Virus record (IMG/VR): IMGVR_UViG_3300026157_000003
Span: 1-48,592 of that record
DNA: 48,592 bases
DNA from: a virus
Direction: 5' to 3' (one strand)
The notes beneath the pieces are model-generated. The model worked only from the letters and a program-made list of their open reading frames with translations, ran no database searches and was not told the DNA's origin. A program made the translations under genes and the position numbers. The stretch's first letter is position 1; each line of letters begins with the position of its first letter. This document shows, in pieces, positions 13,927-19,994 of the stretch.

Positions 13927-13934
13927 AATAAATA
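13927..13934 (+). promoter_or_regulatory. Late promoter core for sheath gene
   Basis: AATAAATA about 40 bases before the gp18 ATG, which has its own SD AGGAG at 13963. Confidence 0.6.
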
Positions 13935-13974: not shown

Positions 13975-16419
13975 ATGGCTACACTAGTATCACCAGGCGT
14001 TGACGTAACAGTTGTTGACGAAAGCGCATATGCCAGCCCGGGTTCTGGCACAATTCCTCTAGTCATTGTTGCTACAGCACAAGACAAGACAGATCCAACA
14101 GGAACAGAAACTGATGGCATCGCAAAATACACAAAGGCAGCTAATGCCAATCTTGTTGTTCCAGTAACATCACAGAGAGAACTAACCCAATTTTTCGGAG
14201 ACCCGACCTTTGCAGCCACTGAAGGTGCAGAGACAAGCGAATATGGTCTCCTAGCTGCATACAGTTATCTAGGACAAGGCTCACAAGCATACGTTGTCCG
14301 TGCAGACGTTGACCTTGCAGGACTTGAATCAAGCGAAACAGCACCAACTGGACCAGCAAATGGCAACCAGTTTTGGCTAGACACTGACGCTAGCTCATAT
14401 GGTATCCACGTTTGGAGCGGCTCAGCATGGGTCCTACAAACTGTAACCGTTGAGGTTGATCTTGCCGCTGCCAGCGGTGAAGTTTCTGACCCTAAGTCAT
14501 ATACACCATCAACCACCGTGGGCGCAGCAGGAGACTTCCTAGTTGCCGTGCTAAGTGATGGCTCAACTGGATTTGCAATTGGTTATTTCTATAGTGACGG
14601 TTCAGCATGGGAAAGTGTTGACACAGCAAACATTGCTGACCTAGCAGCCACAGCAGTAACATATGCTCCACACTATAGCAGCCCATCATCACCAGCAGCA
14701 GACGACATTTGGGTCAAGACTACGTCACCAGGTAATGGTGTTAATCTTGTCATCTATCAGTCAAATAGCCTGGGTGTTTTCAGCCTTGTTGAGGTTGAAG
14801 GTGTTTCAAACGACGGCGGCACAACTTACGTCGCACAAGATGGAACAAGCGCAACAGACATCATTAATGACATGACCGATGGTAATATTGCACTCAACTT
14901 TACAGCCGCAAATGCTGGTTTTGAGATCGAAGAAGTTGATACCACAGCCAGTGCGATTGCTGAAGAAGTATATGCACAGGCAGCTGAGCCAACTGGAGAT
15001 CCAGTTGCAGGAACATATTGGTATGATCCAACTGTTACAGATCTTGATCTTTACATCAATGACGGAACAGATTGGCTACGTATTGATTCAGCAGACGTAA
15101 CATACTCAACAATAGAGCCAACTTCACCAAGCACAGACGACATTTGGGTTGAAACAGATGGAACAGAAGCTGAATATCCCAAGCTTTACCGTTATGATGG
15201 TTCAAACTGGTTGCTATATGACAACACAGACCAAACCACAGACCGTGGTGTATTGTTCGCTGACTTCACAGCAGACAGCACAATCACAGCAGGTGCCGCA
15301 CACGATTCAAACAGCACTGACTTTGATTCAGCACCAGATGAAGCACTATACCCAACCAACATGCTAGCTGTCAACATGGCGCTGTCAAGCGGAACAGTTC
15401 GTGTATGGACTGAAGGCGTTTCAATCAACGGTGGAGCATCAACTGTTGATGCTTGGACCAATGCTGCCGCAAATAATGCCAATGGCAGCGGCGTGTTTAG
15501 TCGTTTGGCACAACGTAAAGTTATTGCAACAGCAATGCAAGCAGCAGTAGCAGGTAACGAAGATCTACGTGATCCAAATCGTAACTTCACCCTACTTGCG
15601 GCTCCAAACTTCCCAGAACTAACAGACGAGTTGGTAACGCTTAACAGCGACCGTGGCGAAACAGGATTTATCATTATTGATACTCCAATGCGTCTCACAC
15701 CAACAGAAGCTGTTAACTGGGTCCAAGGCACTGGCGCAACAGAAAACGGTGATGAAGGTCTTGTTACAAAGAACACCTACAGTGCGGTTTATTACCCAGC
15801 TGGGCGTTCAACAACACCAGCCGGAACCACAGTAACCGTTCCAGCAAGTCACATGGTGCTCTACACCTACGCATACAACGACAACATCAGCTATCCATGG
15901 TTTGCTCCAGCAGGCTTGACGCGTGGTGTCGTGCAGAACGGTAGCGCAGTTGGTTACATCACAACAGAAGAAGAATTCAAGGCAGTATCACTTAGCCAAG
16001 GCCAGCGTGACGCACTATACTTGAACAAGATGAACCCAATTGCTCAATTCCCTCTAGAGGGTGTAGTTGTGTTTGGTCAGAAGACCCTGCATTCAACCAG
16101 CAGCGCATTGGATCGAGTCAACGTAGCACGTCTCGTTGCTTACCTACGTGAGCGTTTCGACGAGATTGCACGTCCGCTGCTCTTTGAACAGAACGACACA
16201 TTGACACGTCAACGTGCCGTCCAATTGTTCGAAAGCTTCCTAAGCGACTTGCTAACCAAGAGAGCACTCACTGACTTTGCGGTTGTATGTGACGAATCAA
16301 ACAATACACCGATTCGAATCGACCGCAACGAACTATATATTGACGTAGCAATTGCTCCGACCAAGGCGGTGGAATTCATCTACATTCCAATCCGTATTGT
16401 CAACACCGGCGCTCTATAA
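13975..16419 (+). CDS. 18: Tail sheath protein, gp18-like
   Basis: An 814-residue contractile sheath subunit. The N-terminus MATLVSPGVDVTVVDES is the classic sheath start, and the C-terminal 250 residues (LNKMNPIAQFPLEGVVVFGQ, then RVNVARLVAYLRERF and VAIAPTKAVEFIYIPI) form the conserved handshake and core region. It is longer than T4 gp18 (659). The extra length lies at about 120-420 and contains five repeats of one module: P-x-GD-x-W followed by LYxxDGSxW, at about 123-156, 178-214, 233-272, 337-371 and 378-416. These would be exposed on the outside of the tail. SD AGGAGA precedes the ATG. Confidence 0.93.
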   Translation: MATLVSPGVDVTVVDESAYASPGSGTIPLVIVATAQDKTDPTGTETDGIAKYTKAANANLVVPVTSQRELTQFFGDPTFAATEGAETSEYGLLAAYSYLGQGSQAYVVRADVDLAGLESSETAPTGPANGNQFWLDTDASSYGIHVWSGSAWVLQTVTVEVDLAAASGEVSDPKSYTPSTTVGAAGDFLVAVLSDGSTGFAIGYFYSDGSAWESVDTANIADLAATAVTYAPHYSSPSSPAADDIWVKTTSPGNGVNLVIYQSNSLGVFSLVEVEGVSNDGGTTYVAQDGTSATDIINDMTDGNIALNFTAANAGFEIEEVDTTASAIAEEVYAQAAEPTGDPVAGTYWYDPTVTDLDLYINDGTDWLRIDSADVTYSTIEPTSPSTDDIWVETDGTEAEYPKLYRYDGSNWLLYDNTDQTTDRGVLFADFTADSTITAGAAHDSNSTDFDSAPDEALYPTNMLAVNMALSSGTVRVWTEGVSINGGASTVDAWTNAAANNANGSGVFSRLAQRKVIATAMQAAVAGNEDLRDPNRNFTLLAAPNFPELTDELVTLNSDRGETGFIIIDTPMRLTPTEAVNWVQGTGATENGDEGLVTKNTYSAVYYPAGRSTTPAGTTVTVPASHMVLYTYAYNDNISYPWFAPAGLTRGVVQNGSAVGYITTEEEFKAVSLSQGQRDALYLNKMNPIAQFPLEGVVVFGQKTLHSTSSALDRVNVARLVAYLRERFDEIARPLLFEQNDTLTRQRAVQLFESFLSDLLTKRALTDFAVVCDESNNTPIRIDRNELYIDVAIAPTKAVEFIYIPIRIVNTGAL

Positions 16420-16436
16420 TATACGTTGATAATTAT

Positions 16437-16444
16437 GATAAATA
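16437..16444 (+). promoter_or_regulatory. Late promoter core for the membrane-motor-like operon
   Basis: GATAAATA between gp18 and the operon; the expected start site falls about 16450, inside the hairpin at 16446-16476. Confidence 0.6.
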
Positions 16445-16445
16445 A

Positions 16446-16476
16446 GTGGGGCAAGGTGGAAACACTTTTGCCCCAC
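16446..16476 (+). terminator. Hairpin between gp18 and the motor-like operon
   Basis: GTGGGGCAA (16446-16454) pairs with TTGCCCCAC (16468-16476). No T-run follows, so it may work as a weak terminator or processing site for gp18 mRNA, or protect the 3' end. Confidence 0.55.
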
Positions 16477-16495
16477 AATCATTAAGGATAAATTA

Positions 16496-16948
16496 ATGAA
16501 TATGAAATTTTGGAAGTTTTGGACAGTATTAATATTGACAGTGTTTGTATTAGCAACAGGCCAATATTACCTTGGATTGTTTGACTTCATTCTAAATTAT
16601 GATCAAACCTACCTAACATTCGTTAACCTAGGCATTGCGGCGGTGGCCCACATCTTAATGATTCGTATGCATTGGCGAAAATCATATGAAGAATACGAAC
16701 ACAAAATGGTTCGTTATATGGGCGAAACCACTGTTTCGATTGGTCTCGTCGGTACATTGATTGGATTTATGATCGTTCTTTGGAGTGTGTTTGGGCCTGG
16801 GGTTGTATTAGATCCAGCAGATACTGTTGCAATGACACAAGCTCTAACCAGTATGGCAAGCGGAATGGCAGCAGCATTGATTACATCTCTTAGTGGTATT
16901 ATACTATCAGCGTTGATTAATTTTCAGTTAGTGATACTTGAAGAATGA
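16496..16948 (+). CDS. MotA/TolQ/ExbB-type proton-channel protein
   Basis: A 150-residue integral membrane protein. Hydrophobic segments are at about 9-30, 38-58, 78-100 and 117-147. The last two match the channel domain of the MotA/TolQ/ExbB family: SIGLVGTLIGFMIVLW followed, after a short loop containing DPAD, by ALTSMASGMAAALITSLSG. In known members five copies surround a dimer of a MotB/TolR/ExbD protein and proton flow drives rotation. It is shorter than ExbB (244) and lacks a large cytoplasmic domain. Start ATG follows SD AAGGA; a second ATG two codons later is possible. It overlaps the next gene by four bases, which encodes the expected partner. Confidence 0.8.
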   Translation: MNMKFWKFWTVLILTVFVLATGQYYLGLFDFILNYDQTYLTFVNLGIAAVAHILMIRMHWRKSYEEYEHKMVRYMGETTVSIGLVGTLIGFMIVLWSVFGPGVVLDPADTVAMTQALTSMASGMAAALITSLSGIILSALINFQLVILEE

Positions 16949-17556
16949 CATCAGGAACTCTTAGATTAGCATTTTTGGATTTGGTATTCAACTTGTTGTT
17001 GGGTATTACGTTGATGTTTATTCTTGCCTTTCTCATGATCAATCCACCAACCCAAGGCGGACAAATTGATCCTCCCATACGCTTCATGGTCGAAATGGAA
17101 TGGGATGATGAAAGTTATGTTGATATTGATCTTTGGGTCCAAGGCAAAGACAGGGATTGGGTTGGGTTTACTCGTATGGATGGTAGTTATTTTGTTCTAG
17201 AGCGAGATGACCGCGGCACACAAAATGATACTATCATGGTTGATGGTGAGCAAGTGGTAATATCACGCAATTATGAAAATATACGTTTCACAATTTTGCC
17301 TCCAGGTGAATATTTTGTAAATGTTCATTATTATAGCAGTTCAGGACCAACAGAAGACATCACAATTAATTTGACCATGCTGAATCCGTTCCGCAGTGTG
17401 TTTACAGACACGGTTACGCTTGACCCTAGTCAAGAGACAACAGTGGTGTCATTCATCGTCGGACAGGATGGAAAGATCACGGACTTAAGAACAAATGTTC
17501 AGGTGAGAAGAAATACGCTTCCGCCTTCAATGAGCGATGGGAATGACGAATGGTAA
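16945..17556 (+). CDS. ExbD/TolR/MotB-like partner with a DUF2135-like beta domain
   Basis: A 203-residue protein with one N-terminal membrane helix at about 8-33 (LAFLDLVFNLLLGITLMF). Asp12 within it is placed like the proton-carrying Asp of ExbD, TolR and MotB. The remaining ~165 residues would lie outside the inner membrane. They are beta-rich and begin with YVDIDLWVQGKDRDWVGF; DxDLWV, ERDDRGTQND and LPPGEYFVNVHYY recall the DUF2135/YfaP-type sandwich rather than the ExbD or OmpA-like peptidoglycan-binding domains. ATGA overlap with the channel gene implies coupled translation. The membrane pairing is well supported; the target of the outer domain is unknown. Confidence 0.72.
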   Translation: MTSGTLRLAFLDLVFNLLLGITLMFILAFLMINPPTQGGQIDPPIRFMVEMEWDDESYVDIDLWVQGKDRDWVGFTRMDGSYFVLERDDRGTQNDTIMVDGEQVVISRNYENIRFTILPPGEYFVNVHYYSSSGPTEDITINLTMLNPFRSVFTDTVTLDPSQETTVVSFIVGQDGKITDLRTNVQVRRNTLPPSMSDGNDEW

Positions 17557-17975
17557 CAATATTAACTCTCATAGGCATATTAACTGCATTGCTTGTTTCT
17601 TTTCTGGCTTACTGGTCACCAGCACATTGGTTTTTAAAATCTATCGCGTTGATGTGTTTTCTTATGATCGGAGTAGTCGCTTATGAGCTCTTCGTAAGGC
17701 AAATGGGGGCGCCAATACAAGCCAAACCCCAAGGTGAATATGCCTATGTTTGGCATGAGATAACAAACAAGCCATCAATTATACTCTGGGCGATCAACGA
17801 CAGAGGTCACCGCTTGTATGAATACCCATACAGTCGTGAAGAAGCTGCAATGCTGGAAGAAATTAGAGAAGCCAGGAAGGATGGTCAACCACCACAGTGG
17901 TTGACATATGATCAGCCAGAAGGCGAAGATGATCAACTCATGGTCTTACCCCACCATAATATAATCAAGCCATAA
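17550..17975 (+). CDS. Third membrane protein of the motor-like operon
   Basis: A 141-residue protein with two hydrophobic segments at about 3-22 and 28-48, then a soluble tail of ~90 residues with many acidic and aromatic positions (SREEAAMLEEIREARKDGQP). It overlaps the previous gene by seven bases. I do not recognise the family. Its fixed place behind an ExbB/ExbD-like pair suggests an accessory or anchoring subunit. A long palindromic hairpin follows three bases after its stop. Confidence 0.6.
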   Translation: MVTILTLIGILTALLVSFLAYWSPAHWFLKSIALMCFLMIGVVAYELFVRQMGAPIQAKPQGEYAYVWHEITNKPSIILWAINDRGHRLYEYPYSREEAAMLEEIREARKDGQPPQWLTYDQPEGEDDQLMVLPHHNIIKP

Positions 17976-17977
17976 GT

Positions 17978-18005
17978 GAAGCCGCTCAATAAATTGAGCG
18001 GCTTC
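17978..18005. terminator. Long perfect hairpin ending the motor-like operon
   Basis: GAAGCCGCTCAA (17978-17989) pairs with TTGAGCGGCTTC (17994-18005), loop TAAA. It is followed by AAGTTT on the plus strand; no strong T-run either way. It could terminate transcripts from both sides. Confidence 0.65.
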
Positions 18006-18302
18006 AAGTTTACACTAGTGCAAAGCGTTTGCTACAGCTAATTGAGGATGGCATCACCGAAAAGCGAAAGTCTCAACGGCCGTAGTTACGAAACAATGCA
18101 TATACCGGGCGATGGTCTAATACGGTTTCTATCGCCCCTCAGCCCCGTCCTCCAGCCTTATCTGGCCGTGGTCCACGAGTTTCTAGTGCTTAGAGAAAGA
18201 GAACGCCGTAAGTGTTGACAAAATCAGTTACAAACAGCGTAGAACCGATAACAAGATTTTCAAGAGTCATAAACATCATTCAGTTTCCTTCTTTATAGTT
18301 AT
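18006..18302 (-). ncRNA. Possible structured minus-strand transcript in the gene-poor gap
   Basis: Apart from one tiny ORF, the 416 bases between 17975 and 18392 hold no gene. A good minus-strand promoter (18303-18331) points into the gap. The interior is GC-rich with local pairing, including GGGCGAT (minus strand, about 18139-18133) with ATCGCCC (about 18115-18109) and CGTGG/CCACG. The bidirectional hairpin at 17978-18005 would end the RNA at about 320 bases. I match it to no known RNA family. Confidence 0.4.
18190..18279 (-). CDS. Possible 29-residue hydrophobic peptide
   Basis: The reading frame starts MMFMTLENLVIGSTLF and ends TYGVLFL, 29 residues, with SD AAGGAAA five bases before the ATG and a sigma70-like minus-strand promoter directly upstream. 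It may be a small membrane peptide or the leader of the downstream RNA. Coding is supported only by signals, not by similarity. Confidence 0.4.
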   Translation of the reverse strand: MMFMTLENLVIGSTLFVTDFVNTYGVLFL

Positions 18303-18349: not shown

Positions 18350-18357
18350 GATAAATA
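18350..18357 (+). promoter_or_regulatory. Late promoter core for tail tube gene
   Basis: GATAAATA, 34 bases before the gp19 ATG, with SD GAGGAG at 18378-18383. Confidence 0.65.
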
Positions 18358-18391: not shown

Positions 18392-19000
18392 ATGGCAGTT
18401 CTTGACAAGCTAAGTGTCCCAGTAAACGGCGAAAGCCAAGGTACACTGATGCCAAAACTACAATACCGCTTCCGCGTTAACTTCATCAACATGGGTGCAG
18501 GCGACACAAAAGTTGCAACAAACAACGTTGTCAGCGTCACACGTCCGAACCTTACACATGATGAAGTTCTAGTGGACACATACAACTCACGTATCTACCT
18601 AGCTGGTAAGCACTCCTGGGAGCCTGTAACCATCGAGCTACGTGACGACATTACATCAGCAACTTCAGCACTACTTGACCAACAAGTTGCGAAGCAGATC
18701 GATATGGCAAACCAGAGCTCACCACAGGCCGGTATTAGCTATAAATTCCAGTGTCAAATTGAAAACTTGAATGGTGCTAACCCAGATCCAGTCCCGCTAG
18801 ACACATGGGTTTTGAGCGGTGCATATATTTCAAACCTAACATACAATGAGACCAACTACGGCAGTGGTGGTGAATACCAGACCATTTCAGTGCAGCTACG
18901 CTATGACAACGCACAACACTTTGTTGGTGCAATTGACAACCTTAGCGATCCAAACTTTAGCGTTGAGACTGTCACACAAGCGAACGCAACAGGTTCATAA
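18392..19000 (+). CDS. 19: Tail tube protein, gp19-like
   Basis: A 202-residue protein of the T4 gp19 tube family. Typical points are YRFRVNFINMG near the start, VSVTRPNLTHDEVLVDTYNS, the HSWEPVTIELRDDI strand and the C-terminal VQLRYDNAQ. T4 gp19 is 163 residues. The tube lies inside the sheath encoded upstream. It has its own late promoter and SD and is followed by a strong terminator, so it forms a separate highly expressed transcript. Confidence 0.85.
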   Translation: MAVLDKLSVPVNGESQGTLMPKLQYRFRVNFINMGAGDTKVATNNVVSVTRPNLTHDEVLVDTYNSRIYLAGKHSWEPVTIELRDDITSATSALLDQQVAKQIDMANQSSPQAGISYKFQCQIENLNGANPDPVPLDTWVLSGAYISNLTYNETNYGSGGEYQTISVQLRYDNAQHFVGAIDNLSDPNFSVETVTQANATGS

Positions 19001-19068: not shown

Positions 19069-19344
19069 ATGAATTTAGATAGACTAAAAGCTCTTTCAGG
19101 AATCAATGAAGATGGAATTGATGACGAAAAAATGGAAGACATTGCTGATTTACTAATACAAGCATTTGATGGCGATCACATGTATGCTGACATCAAGAAA
19201 ACCAAAAAATATGTTGAAATAGACACAGGCGTAAGTCAGCATGAGCTTCATGTTTTTCCTGAGCATTTGAATAAATTATATCGTCATCCCAGTGTAGCGA
19301 GTGTAACAATCTATAGAGACAAAGCGAGAGCATATCTACAATAA
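19069..19344 (+). CDS. Small protein with LSGINE-type N-terminus
   Basis: A 91-residue protein with SD AAGGAAA. The N-terminus MNLDRLKALSGINEDG belongs to the same tag-like group as the genes at 9554 and 47561. The rest (DLLIQAFDGDHMYADIKKTK, HELHVFPEHLNKLYRHP) is unlike theirs. No function recognised. Its stop overlaps the next start (TAATG). Confidence 0.6.
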   Translation: MNLDRLKALSGINEDGIDDEKMEDIADLLIQAFDGDHMYADIKKTKKYVEIDTGVSQHELHVFPEHLNKLYRHPSVASVTIYRDKARAYLQ

Positions 19345-19994
19345 TGGCAATCACCAATTTCGCACAAGAGGTTTATAGCTCAGATAGTCCAGGCACATTG
19401 GATCTCATTCCTCGTCAGAGGTTTAATTTCACATTGCAGTTGACTACACATGATCGTGCGATTATCAATTACCACAAAGTTAGTGAAGTTACACAGCCGA
19501 GTTTTAGTGTTGATGGTCAGTTGATGAATCAATACAACAAAAAGCGTTTCGTGCAGACACGAATCAATTATGATCCGATCACAGTGAGTTTTTATGACAC
19601 ATTTGATGACCAGTGGTATAATATCATGCGTGACTATTTTGCTCATTACTATAACGGAACAGAAGGTTTGACAAGTAGGACTCAGCTTGAGGGAACAAGC
19701 ACAGTGGAGATCAACTTTGAAACAGATTTAGGTTTTACCCCCAATGCCACACGCAACTTCTTTCCTGAGATCCGTATTATACAGAATGGTATCCGCGGCC
19801 GTCACCGTGGTTGGATACTCAAGCAACCATATATTACCTCGGTGACTGGCGATACAATGAACTACAGCGACAGCAATCCAGTTCAGTGGGCAGTAACATT
19901 CCAGCCTGAGAGTGTTCAGACATATGTTGAATCAAGTCAGTTTGATGATGGAATAGAACCTAGCCGTTCTCCACGACCATCCAGCACCGGATAA
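19344..19994 (+). CDS. Second tail-tube-like protein
   Basis: A 216-residue protein resembling the tube family of marine T4-like phages: PRQRFNFTLQL near the N-terminus, SEVTQPSFSVDGQLMNQYNK, then INYDPITVSFYDTFDDQWY. It differs greatly from the gp19-like gene just upstream. It may be a tube terminator (gp3 role), a tube initiator (gp54 role) or a minor tube protein; sequence alone does not decide. Its position beside gp4 would suit a tail- or head-completion gene. ATG overlaps the preceding stop. Confidence 0.7.
   Translation: MAITNFAQEVYSSDSPGTLDLIPRQRFNFTLQLTTHDRAIINYHKVSEVTQPSFSVDGQLMNQYNKKRFVQTRINYDPITVSFYDTFDDQWYNIMRDYFAHYYNGTEGLTSRTQLEGTSTVEINFETDLGFTPNATRNFFPEIRIIQNGIRGRHRGWILKQPYITSVTGDTMNYSDSNPVQWAVTFQPESVQTYVESSQFDDGIEPSRSPRPSSTG

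Follow-up and report, generated by a model that had tools for sequence, protein, structure and literature searches.

The subject of this analysis is a set of three genes, hereafter A, B and C (together, the trio), in the 48,592-nucleotide virus record IMGVR_UViG_3300026157_000003; this whole stretch is referred to as the window. The three genes lie on the plus strand between the sheath gene and the tube gene of a contractile tail. The open reading frames (ORFs) agree with the description in a first-pass annotation of three overlapping genes at this place, the overlaps being 4 nucleotides (nt) for A/B and 7 nt for B/C.

16496..16948, plus strand: gene A, 150 amino acids (aa), putative MotA/TolQ/ExbB-type channel subunit with four hydrophobic segments
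16945..17556, plus strand: gene B, 203 aa, one N-terminal membrane helix and a beta-sandwich outer domain with a predicted TerD-like fold
17550..17975, plus strand: gene C, 141 aa, two membrane helices and a small beta-beta-beta-alpha domain, predicted to be periplasmic

By sequence comparison, A, B and C were shown to constitute one conserved unit, composed of a putative channel subunit, a putative one-helix partner bearing an Asp residue, and a third membrane protein. A scan of IMG/VR provided 100 relatives, and 80 loci were kept (fetched comparison loci and contigs carry L-numbers, such as L011). When profiles of A, B and C were applied to 102 sequences, many of them copies, A and B were found in 100 and all three genes in 96; the four sequences without C (L013, L028, L053 and L075) end close behind or inside B. 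The two lacking all three genes are Phosso and XacN1, which had been included for their sheath alone. After the removal of near-copies (B proteins reaching about 93% similarity in a simple string comparison), 69 non-redundant loci were left. Complete trios account for 67 of the 69, and the order and strand are identical in 67/67; the first-pass annotation had expected the A/B pair to be a conserved unit in relatives. The genes are also closely packed: overlapping junctions or junctions of ≤20 nt were found at 58 of 69 loci for A-B and at 53 of 67 for B-C, as counted from longest-ORF starts, which favours overlap. The longer gaps within the trio in the annotated phages that were opened are filled by homing-endonuclease-like or small hypothetical genes. 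At L005, L006 and L018, HNH and Seg-like homing-endonuclease-type genes (GIY-YIG-like by eye in L006) occur within the trio, and the gene order remains intact. In the most diverged phages, C was recognised at E up to 0.06 together with its position, and the larger profiles used in the lysis scan were trained on those proteins.

The ratios of nonsynonymous to synonymous polymorphism (pN/pS) among the window, L011, L012 and L015 were 0.23-0.30 for A, 0.24-0.32 for B and 0.36-0.49 for C (6 pairs from 4 sequences per gene, with synonymous sites close to saturation). Judged from these ratios, each of the three genes is under purifying selection.

Among annotated phages, tblastn of five B queries against INPHARED gave the same number of 27 records each time, namely 25 Rhizobium and 2 Sinorhizobium phages; in the full list, 8 of the 27 are RefSeq copies, leaving 19 phages. 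The window A alone gave no tblastn match in INPHARED at E ≤ 1. Eleven records were opened, in all of which the trio products are annotated as hypothetical or by a number only. These carriers include Pootjesviridae, a 171-kb Rhizobium phage, 68-kb Rhizobium phages and temperate relatives of phage 16-3. The trio was also found on metagenomic contigs of up to 363 kb.

The predicted membrane complex

The assignment of A to the MotA/TolQ/ExbB channel superfamily, made in the first-pass annotation from its signature, is well supported by three lines of sequence comparison. One is PF01618 (MotA_ExbB), which matched the window A with E 3e-4 and 21.0 bits, just under the gathering score of 22.9 bits; three relatives of A passed this score (27.3, 26.8 and 23.0 bits), and 61 of the 69 non-redundant homologues matched at E ≤ 0.01. 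Another is the search of PDB with a profile of 15 A proteins, which provided 23 distinct sequences at E ≤ 10, 20 of them MotA/TolQ/ExbB/ZorA or channel-family-named entries; the first 18 are all of the MotA/TolQ/ExbB/ZorA kind, the best with E 4.5e-5 and the rest with 0.0039 or weaker. The last is the conservation of the pore-helix residues Gly86 (69/69), Thr87 (61/69), Thr130 (55/69), Ser/Thr131 (68/69) and Gly134 (68/69); small and polar residues on two pore helices are a motif of this superfamily. The key residues of A and B are located as follows.

16754..16756, plus strand: Thr87 of A, third helix, within the GT motif (Thr in 61/69)
16883..16885, plus strand: Thr130 of A, in the fourth helix (Thr in 55/69; Thr or Ser in 65/69)
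16978..16980, plus strand: Asp12 of B, the presumed proton-carrying Asp (67/67 homologues)

The proposal that B is a one-helix partner carrying Asp12 was likewise upheld. In the AlphaFold model of B (57 sequences in the alignment; mean predicted local distance difference test, pLDDT, 88.5), the N-terminal helix spans residues 3-32 and is the only membrane helix; along with the universal Asp12, it carries Asn16 in 51 of the 67 homologues. The outer domain contains ten residues that are invariant in 67/67: W53, D60, D62, L85, R87, D88, D89, G91, N94 and E111. Because its acidic residues are invariant, binding of metal by this domain is plausible. Its fold is predicted to be TerD-like: the model matched 3ibz (TerD) with Z 11.7 (144 residues aligned, 4.4 Å) and 2qz7_B (a TerD homologue) with Z 10.0 (132 aligned, 3.6 Å). 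The other top matches were 2qng (Z 10.5) and 9a6r_B (Z 10.4), both also of the TerD family, and 7jtk_A (Z 10.3); after these five entries the ranking shows a gap, the sixth row having Z 6.4. Foldseek alone gave weak matches (E 0.017 or worse). Only a likeness of fold is claimed, since neither Pfam (no TerD match at E ≤ 0.01 among the 67 B members) nor hhalign against 7 TerD proteins (probability 0.4, no match) links B to this family by sequence. The first-pass annotation had likened the outer domain to DUF2135, and this candidate was rejected: the window B reached 15.3 bits against a cut-off of 22, 0/67 members matched at E ≤ 0.01, and the closest solved fold is that of TerD. ExbD is not among the three Pfam families matched by the 67 members at E ≤ 0.01, and these matches include no peptidoglycan-binding family.

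For C, the two helices that had been described were found again in the model (mean pLDDT 83.6), followed by the small domain. Both helices can be recognised in 65 non-redundant C proteins; in 57 of these, the inter-helix loop has a higher net positive charge than the segment following helix 2, and in 4 it has a lower one. By the positive-inside rule, the domain is therefore predicted to face the periplasm. No clear fold match was obtained for this domain (best covering row, Z 5.6; Foldseek against PDB, E 0.43 or worse). BFVD provided two matches at E ≤ 0.001 and a third at 0.0012, one of the three being a named Rhizobium-phage protein and two being nameless. Neither B nor C passed a curated-family cut-off in Pfam (fused lysozymes of C aside), NCBIfam or PADLOC, and PHROGs matched them weakly.

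Complexes that turn proton flow into work serve flagella, the Ton/Tol systems, gliding and Zorya, and GldL-GldM is a comparison system alongside MotA-MotB. That the trio encodes an inner-membrane complex of the MotA/ExbB kind is well supported as to class, and it is predicted to represent a new branch of the proton-driven 5:2-type complexes: a deeply diverged three-gene branch, common to several phage groups and alphaproteobacterial chromosomes. Like ExbB-ExbD and TolQ-TolR, it pairs a channel subunit carrying the PF01618 helices with a one-helix, Asp-bearing partner from the adjacent gene, whereas B lacks an ExbD match (E ≤ 0.01, 67 members) and has a TerD-like fold, and the two-helix C is additional. 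With MotA-MotB it shares the four hydrophobic segments of A and the Asp helix of B, but the cytoplasmic loop of the window A is very short and the Pfam matches of B lack a peptidoglycan-binding family. The likeness of B to the TerD family, in turn, lies in the modelled outer-domain fold and not in the sequence.

The resemblance to Zorya bears on one possible function, namely superinfection exclusion or counter-defence, in which the complex would guard the envelope against other phages, or mimic or poison ZorAB. The closest defence models of A are indeed ZorA (PADLOC 5.7e-8; NCBIfam 3.1e-4), the trio occurs in temperate phages and in Rhizobiaceae genome loci that branch with them, and protease genes adjoin it. 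However, ZorA_2 scored 19.9 bits against a cut-off of 100, the 150-aa A lacks the long ZorA tail, and B has no ZorB match; the trio also differs from Zorya in being phage-borne. A lysozyme attached to C with an intact catalytic motif, as described below, would also be ill suited to this function, which we regard as improbable.

Lysozyme fusions and a proposed role in phages

Pfam Phage_lysozyme was found in 4 of the 67 C proteins, at residues 167-295 (E 4.7e-47 to 5.8e-50); the window C is without it. A second viral scan, with the C of the fusion clade and a profile built on the four lysozyme domains, brought the C-lysozyme fusions to 8 distinct viral contigs, all from one phage clade (four identified by Pfam, the other four by our own profile). 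Six of these contigs carry the whole A-B-C, one carries B-C, and one carries C alone at the contig end. All eight lysozymes retain E-x8-D-x5-T, which, as read from the sequences, is an intact catalytic motif. Like the SAR (signal-arrest-release) endolysins, the lysozyme of this clade would be held at the inner membrane by helices at its N-terminus; unlike them, its anchor is the entire C, two helices and domain, encoded with a channel pair. These fusions did not figure in the first-pass annotation.

Separate lysozyme genes were also found near the trio. The C of L063, the sister of the fusion clade, has no lysozyme domain; here the closest independent lysozyme gene is found on the same strand, 4.4 kb further downstream, and its product has a hydrophobic segment at the N-terminus. 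L037 has a lysozyme gene 1.2 kb behind C, on the opposite strand. The 16-3-like branches comprise 14 members; the upstream flank, as fetched, contains a lysozyme gene in 7 of them (L005, L018, L087, L093, L097, L106 and L107). A same-strand gene series of holin, anchored endolysin, Rz and Rz1, in this order, was recognised about 1.5-4 kb before A in L018, L087, L093 and L106. The names holin, Rz, Rz1, TonB-dependent receptor and similar ones in this text were given by eye, without a family search, as were the calls of copies as lying outside prophages.

Because of the lysozyme fusion and the lysis-gene neighbours, a role at the end of infection is the likeliest one in phages. We therefore tentatively prefer an action of the phage trio on the envelope of the host cell when infection ends or in lysis, giving it somewhat less than an even chance. 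In this mechanism, A would form a channel ring around B, whose central helix would hold the proton-carrying Asp and whose TerD-like domain would lie in the periplasm; C would be a third subunit with its domain towards the periplasm. Proton flow through A/B, or its collapse, would move or release B and C, and these would in turn drive or gate a step that opens the envelope as infection ends; in the fusion clade, C itself would bear the lysozyme. A more specific form, in which a proton-powered machine akin to a chromosomal 5:2-type complex mechanically drives or gates a membrane-tethered wall hydrolase (motor-assisted lysis), appears unlikely. If the lysis role is true, phages would go beyond hole punching, the proton gradient being used or sensed for work on the wall.

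Several observations weigh against a role in lysis. The remaining 7 of the 14 16-3-like members (L002, L006, L094, L096, L100, L109 and L110), a set that includes 16-3, have no lysozyme in the flank, some flanks being short. The record of L018 contains an annotated attL between the lysis genes and the trio, so this neighbourhood may be a cargo region. Of 48 whole records, 16 contain Phage_lysozyme (15 with scores above the cut-off); several of these matches fall in long frames of tail-like character, and in N3_19 and L078 the distance to the trio is about 17 kb. Outside the fusion and 16-3-like clades, no lysis link was seen except in L037, and in the opened Pootjesviridae the trio adjoins gyrase and late sigma factor genes. 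Phages with a full holin-endolysin-Rz-Rz1 set keep the trio, which therefore is not a plain replacement for these genes. Finally, bacterial chromosomes carry the trio outside prophages, and lysis cannot be its role there.

A simpler connection with lysis is a pinholin-like leak, in which A and B would merely discharge the proton gradient and thereby trigger anchored endolysins. That A belongs to a channel family, and that lysozymes with N-terminal hydrophobic segments (by eye) occur in L063, L018, L087 and L093, is in line with this idea. In a plain leak, however, the conserved outer domain of B and the protein C would be purposeless, and bacteria retain the operon on their chromosomes; we consider the leak very improbable. 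Peptidase_M15_4 was also tried as a common partner of the trio and was dropped, as it was found in 2/48 records.

Homologous operons on bacterial chromosomes

A pattern scan of genome contigs provided nine loci, of which four Rhizobiaceae loci branch with the 16-3-like phages and several others look like plain chromosome. The nine loci had suggested a virus-only module, a view that was overturned by profile searches of genomes. In the class of L106 (Rhizobium; Alphaproteobacteria), 289 genomes were searched and 40 contained B at E ≤ 1e-5, with E below 1e-38 in 35; some of the 40 hold prophage copies, such as the Rhizobium seed genome of L106. In the phylum of L106, 16 of 398 genomes carry B at E ≤ 1e-10, while in two other phyla (286 and 198 genomes) only the seed genome does. 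Among 23 cellular stretches that were read, 19 have A-B-C in order; a called C is missing from L170, which lies at a contig end, and from L104 and L105, and a called B is missing from L172. Seven further stretches comprise six with A-B-C and L180 with C alone. Some of these stretches are near-copies of one another. These chromosomal operons were also absent from the first-pass annotation.

In a tree of 96 B proteins (71 from phages or prophages and 25 cellular), the phage/cell label changes 6 times, and 3 of the changes are forced by starred branches; the tree is a quick one with long branches. The label changes point to exchange between phages and cells.

It was also found that the cellular copies are partly associated with pyrroloquinoline quinone (PQQ) systems. 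Among the 29 genomes with a known place of B, a gene for a PQQ dehydrogenase (PF01011) or for PQQ_ABC_repeats lies at ≤20 kb from B in 10, as compared with about 1.3 expected; the expectation is rough, because hits were taken as independent and random and nearby genes were counted apart, and two of the ten copies are near-identical. The expectation was derived from PF01011 hits at E below 1e-20 and from TIGR03866 hits that passed the cut-off. Chromosomal A-B-C operons near PQQ-dependent alcohol dehydrogenase systems are seen, for example, in L158, L159, L166-L170, L179 and L182.

The main rival to the end-of-infection reading arises here, since bacteria keep the trio on chromosomes, partly near PQQ-dehydrogenase genes. 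According to it, phages would have taken over an envelope energiser from a host as a set of auxiliary genes; as in cells, it would power periplasmic or outer-membrane uptake or maturation, perhaps tied to PQQ-dependent dehydrogenases or their metals, and would keep the infected cell productive. In addition to the frequency of B in the class and its PQQ-system neighbours, this explanation is favoured by the TerD-like fold of B with its invariant acidic residues, by a TonB-dependent receptor gene near the trio in L182, and by SbmA/BacA-like peptide-transporter genes near the trio at 8 of the 69 phage loci (L030, L032, L035, L037, L041, L046, L054 and L067; by Pfam in L037). On the other hand, phages show the lysozyme fusions and lysis-gene neighbours, 0 of 10 scanned phage-neighbour families is a PQQ-system gene (the scan covered a minority of neighbours), and 19 of the 29 cellular copies have no PQQ-system gene within 20 kb on the contig. 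An energiser of this kind is possible, though on balance doubtful. If it is true, the trio would define an uncharacterised energised complex of alphaproteobacteria. Because phage 16-3 carries the trio, the lysis and host-envelope readings are both testable in Sinorhizobium.

In the literature, the nearest published case found is an ExbB-type gene of Lentisphaerae phages, which was proposed as a putative auxiliary gene (PMC11361711) and thus also favours the energiser; the parts of that paper seen mention no ExbD-type partner or third subunit. The trio is not named in the titles or abstract openings that the literature searches listed. The text seen of PMC5852040 has ExbB in the reference list only, and the matched passages of PMC10460002 (phage AP-16-3) and PMC12429752 are silent on the trio.

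As for other neighbours of the cellular trio, a lipoprotein-like gene lies directly 3′ of C in several operons (L161-L165 and L182; DUF3108-like by Pfam in the L162 copy). In a Kaiserbacteria metagenome-assembled genome, a trypsin-like protease (by reading; L104:9199-10026) lies beside the trio, which echoes an arrangement in phages.

Surroundings of the trio in the window and in other phages

The window has the following features around the trio.

13975-16419: sheath gene (phrog_10581, E 2.3e-201)
16438..16444, plus strand: ATAAATA, a T4-late-promoter-like motif, 52-58 nt upstream of gene A
16446..16476, plus strand: hairpin without a T-run, between the sheath stop and gene A (RNAfold -22.2 kcal/mol)
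17977..18006, plus strand: hairpin without a T-run, directly 3′ of gene C (RNAfold -22.3 kcal/mol)
18392-19000: tube gene (phrog_4542, E 2.1e-46)

The first-pass annotation had attached meaning to the position in the tail cluster, which is not sustained. Clustering by blastp clarified that sheath and tube neighbours recur, among the non-redundant loci, only at L011, L012 and L015; the position among tail genes is thus lineage-specific and without general meaning. A role in tail assembly was rejected because the other phage groups carry the trio elsewhere; moreover, in Phosso and XacN1, whose sheaths are related, the 12 kb retrieved around the sheath gene contain none of the three genes. Genes next to the trio in annotated phages encode gyrase, sigma factors, exonucleases, proteases or hypothetical proteins. 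At 12 of the 69 loci, the fetched flank contains a gene for a trypsin-like protease with a signal or lipoprotein start, in line with an action on the envelope, and at 18 of 69 a ClpP-fold gene (one member of each named neighbour cluster was scanned with Pfam and PHROGs, Pfam confirming the protease, ClpP-fold and SbmA/BacA-like members).

Exact copies of ATAAATA in the window number 12 on the plus strand (8782, 13928, 16438, 18351, 21654, 24693, 28018, 30329, 39832, 43001, 46873 and 47257) against 3 on the minus strand. Several plus-strand copies lie directly 5′ of genes, that at 13928 preceding the sheath gene and that at 18351 the tube gene, and the motif is likely to be a T4-type late promoter. 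The late promoter assigned to the trio in the first-pass annotation is accordingly probable. The motif also precedes A in L011, L012 and L014 (a near-copy of L012), but it is missing from the 110 nt upstream of A in L015. The two hairpins noted in the first-pass annotation are real, each at about -22 kcal/mol, but a consensus scan for intrinsic terminators counts neither of them. Upstream of A, strong stems of differing sequence were also found in L012 and L015, and the stem of L011 is weaker, with another fold.

Two minor observations concern the tail genes. In the jumbo phage Phosso, a gene for a Ro-like RNA-binding protein (L021:8531-10195) is located at the sheath/tube gap, where the window holds the trio. 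In the window itself, two tube-like proteins, both phrog_4542, are encoded close together at 18392-19000 and 19344-19994.

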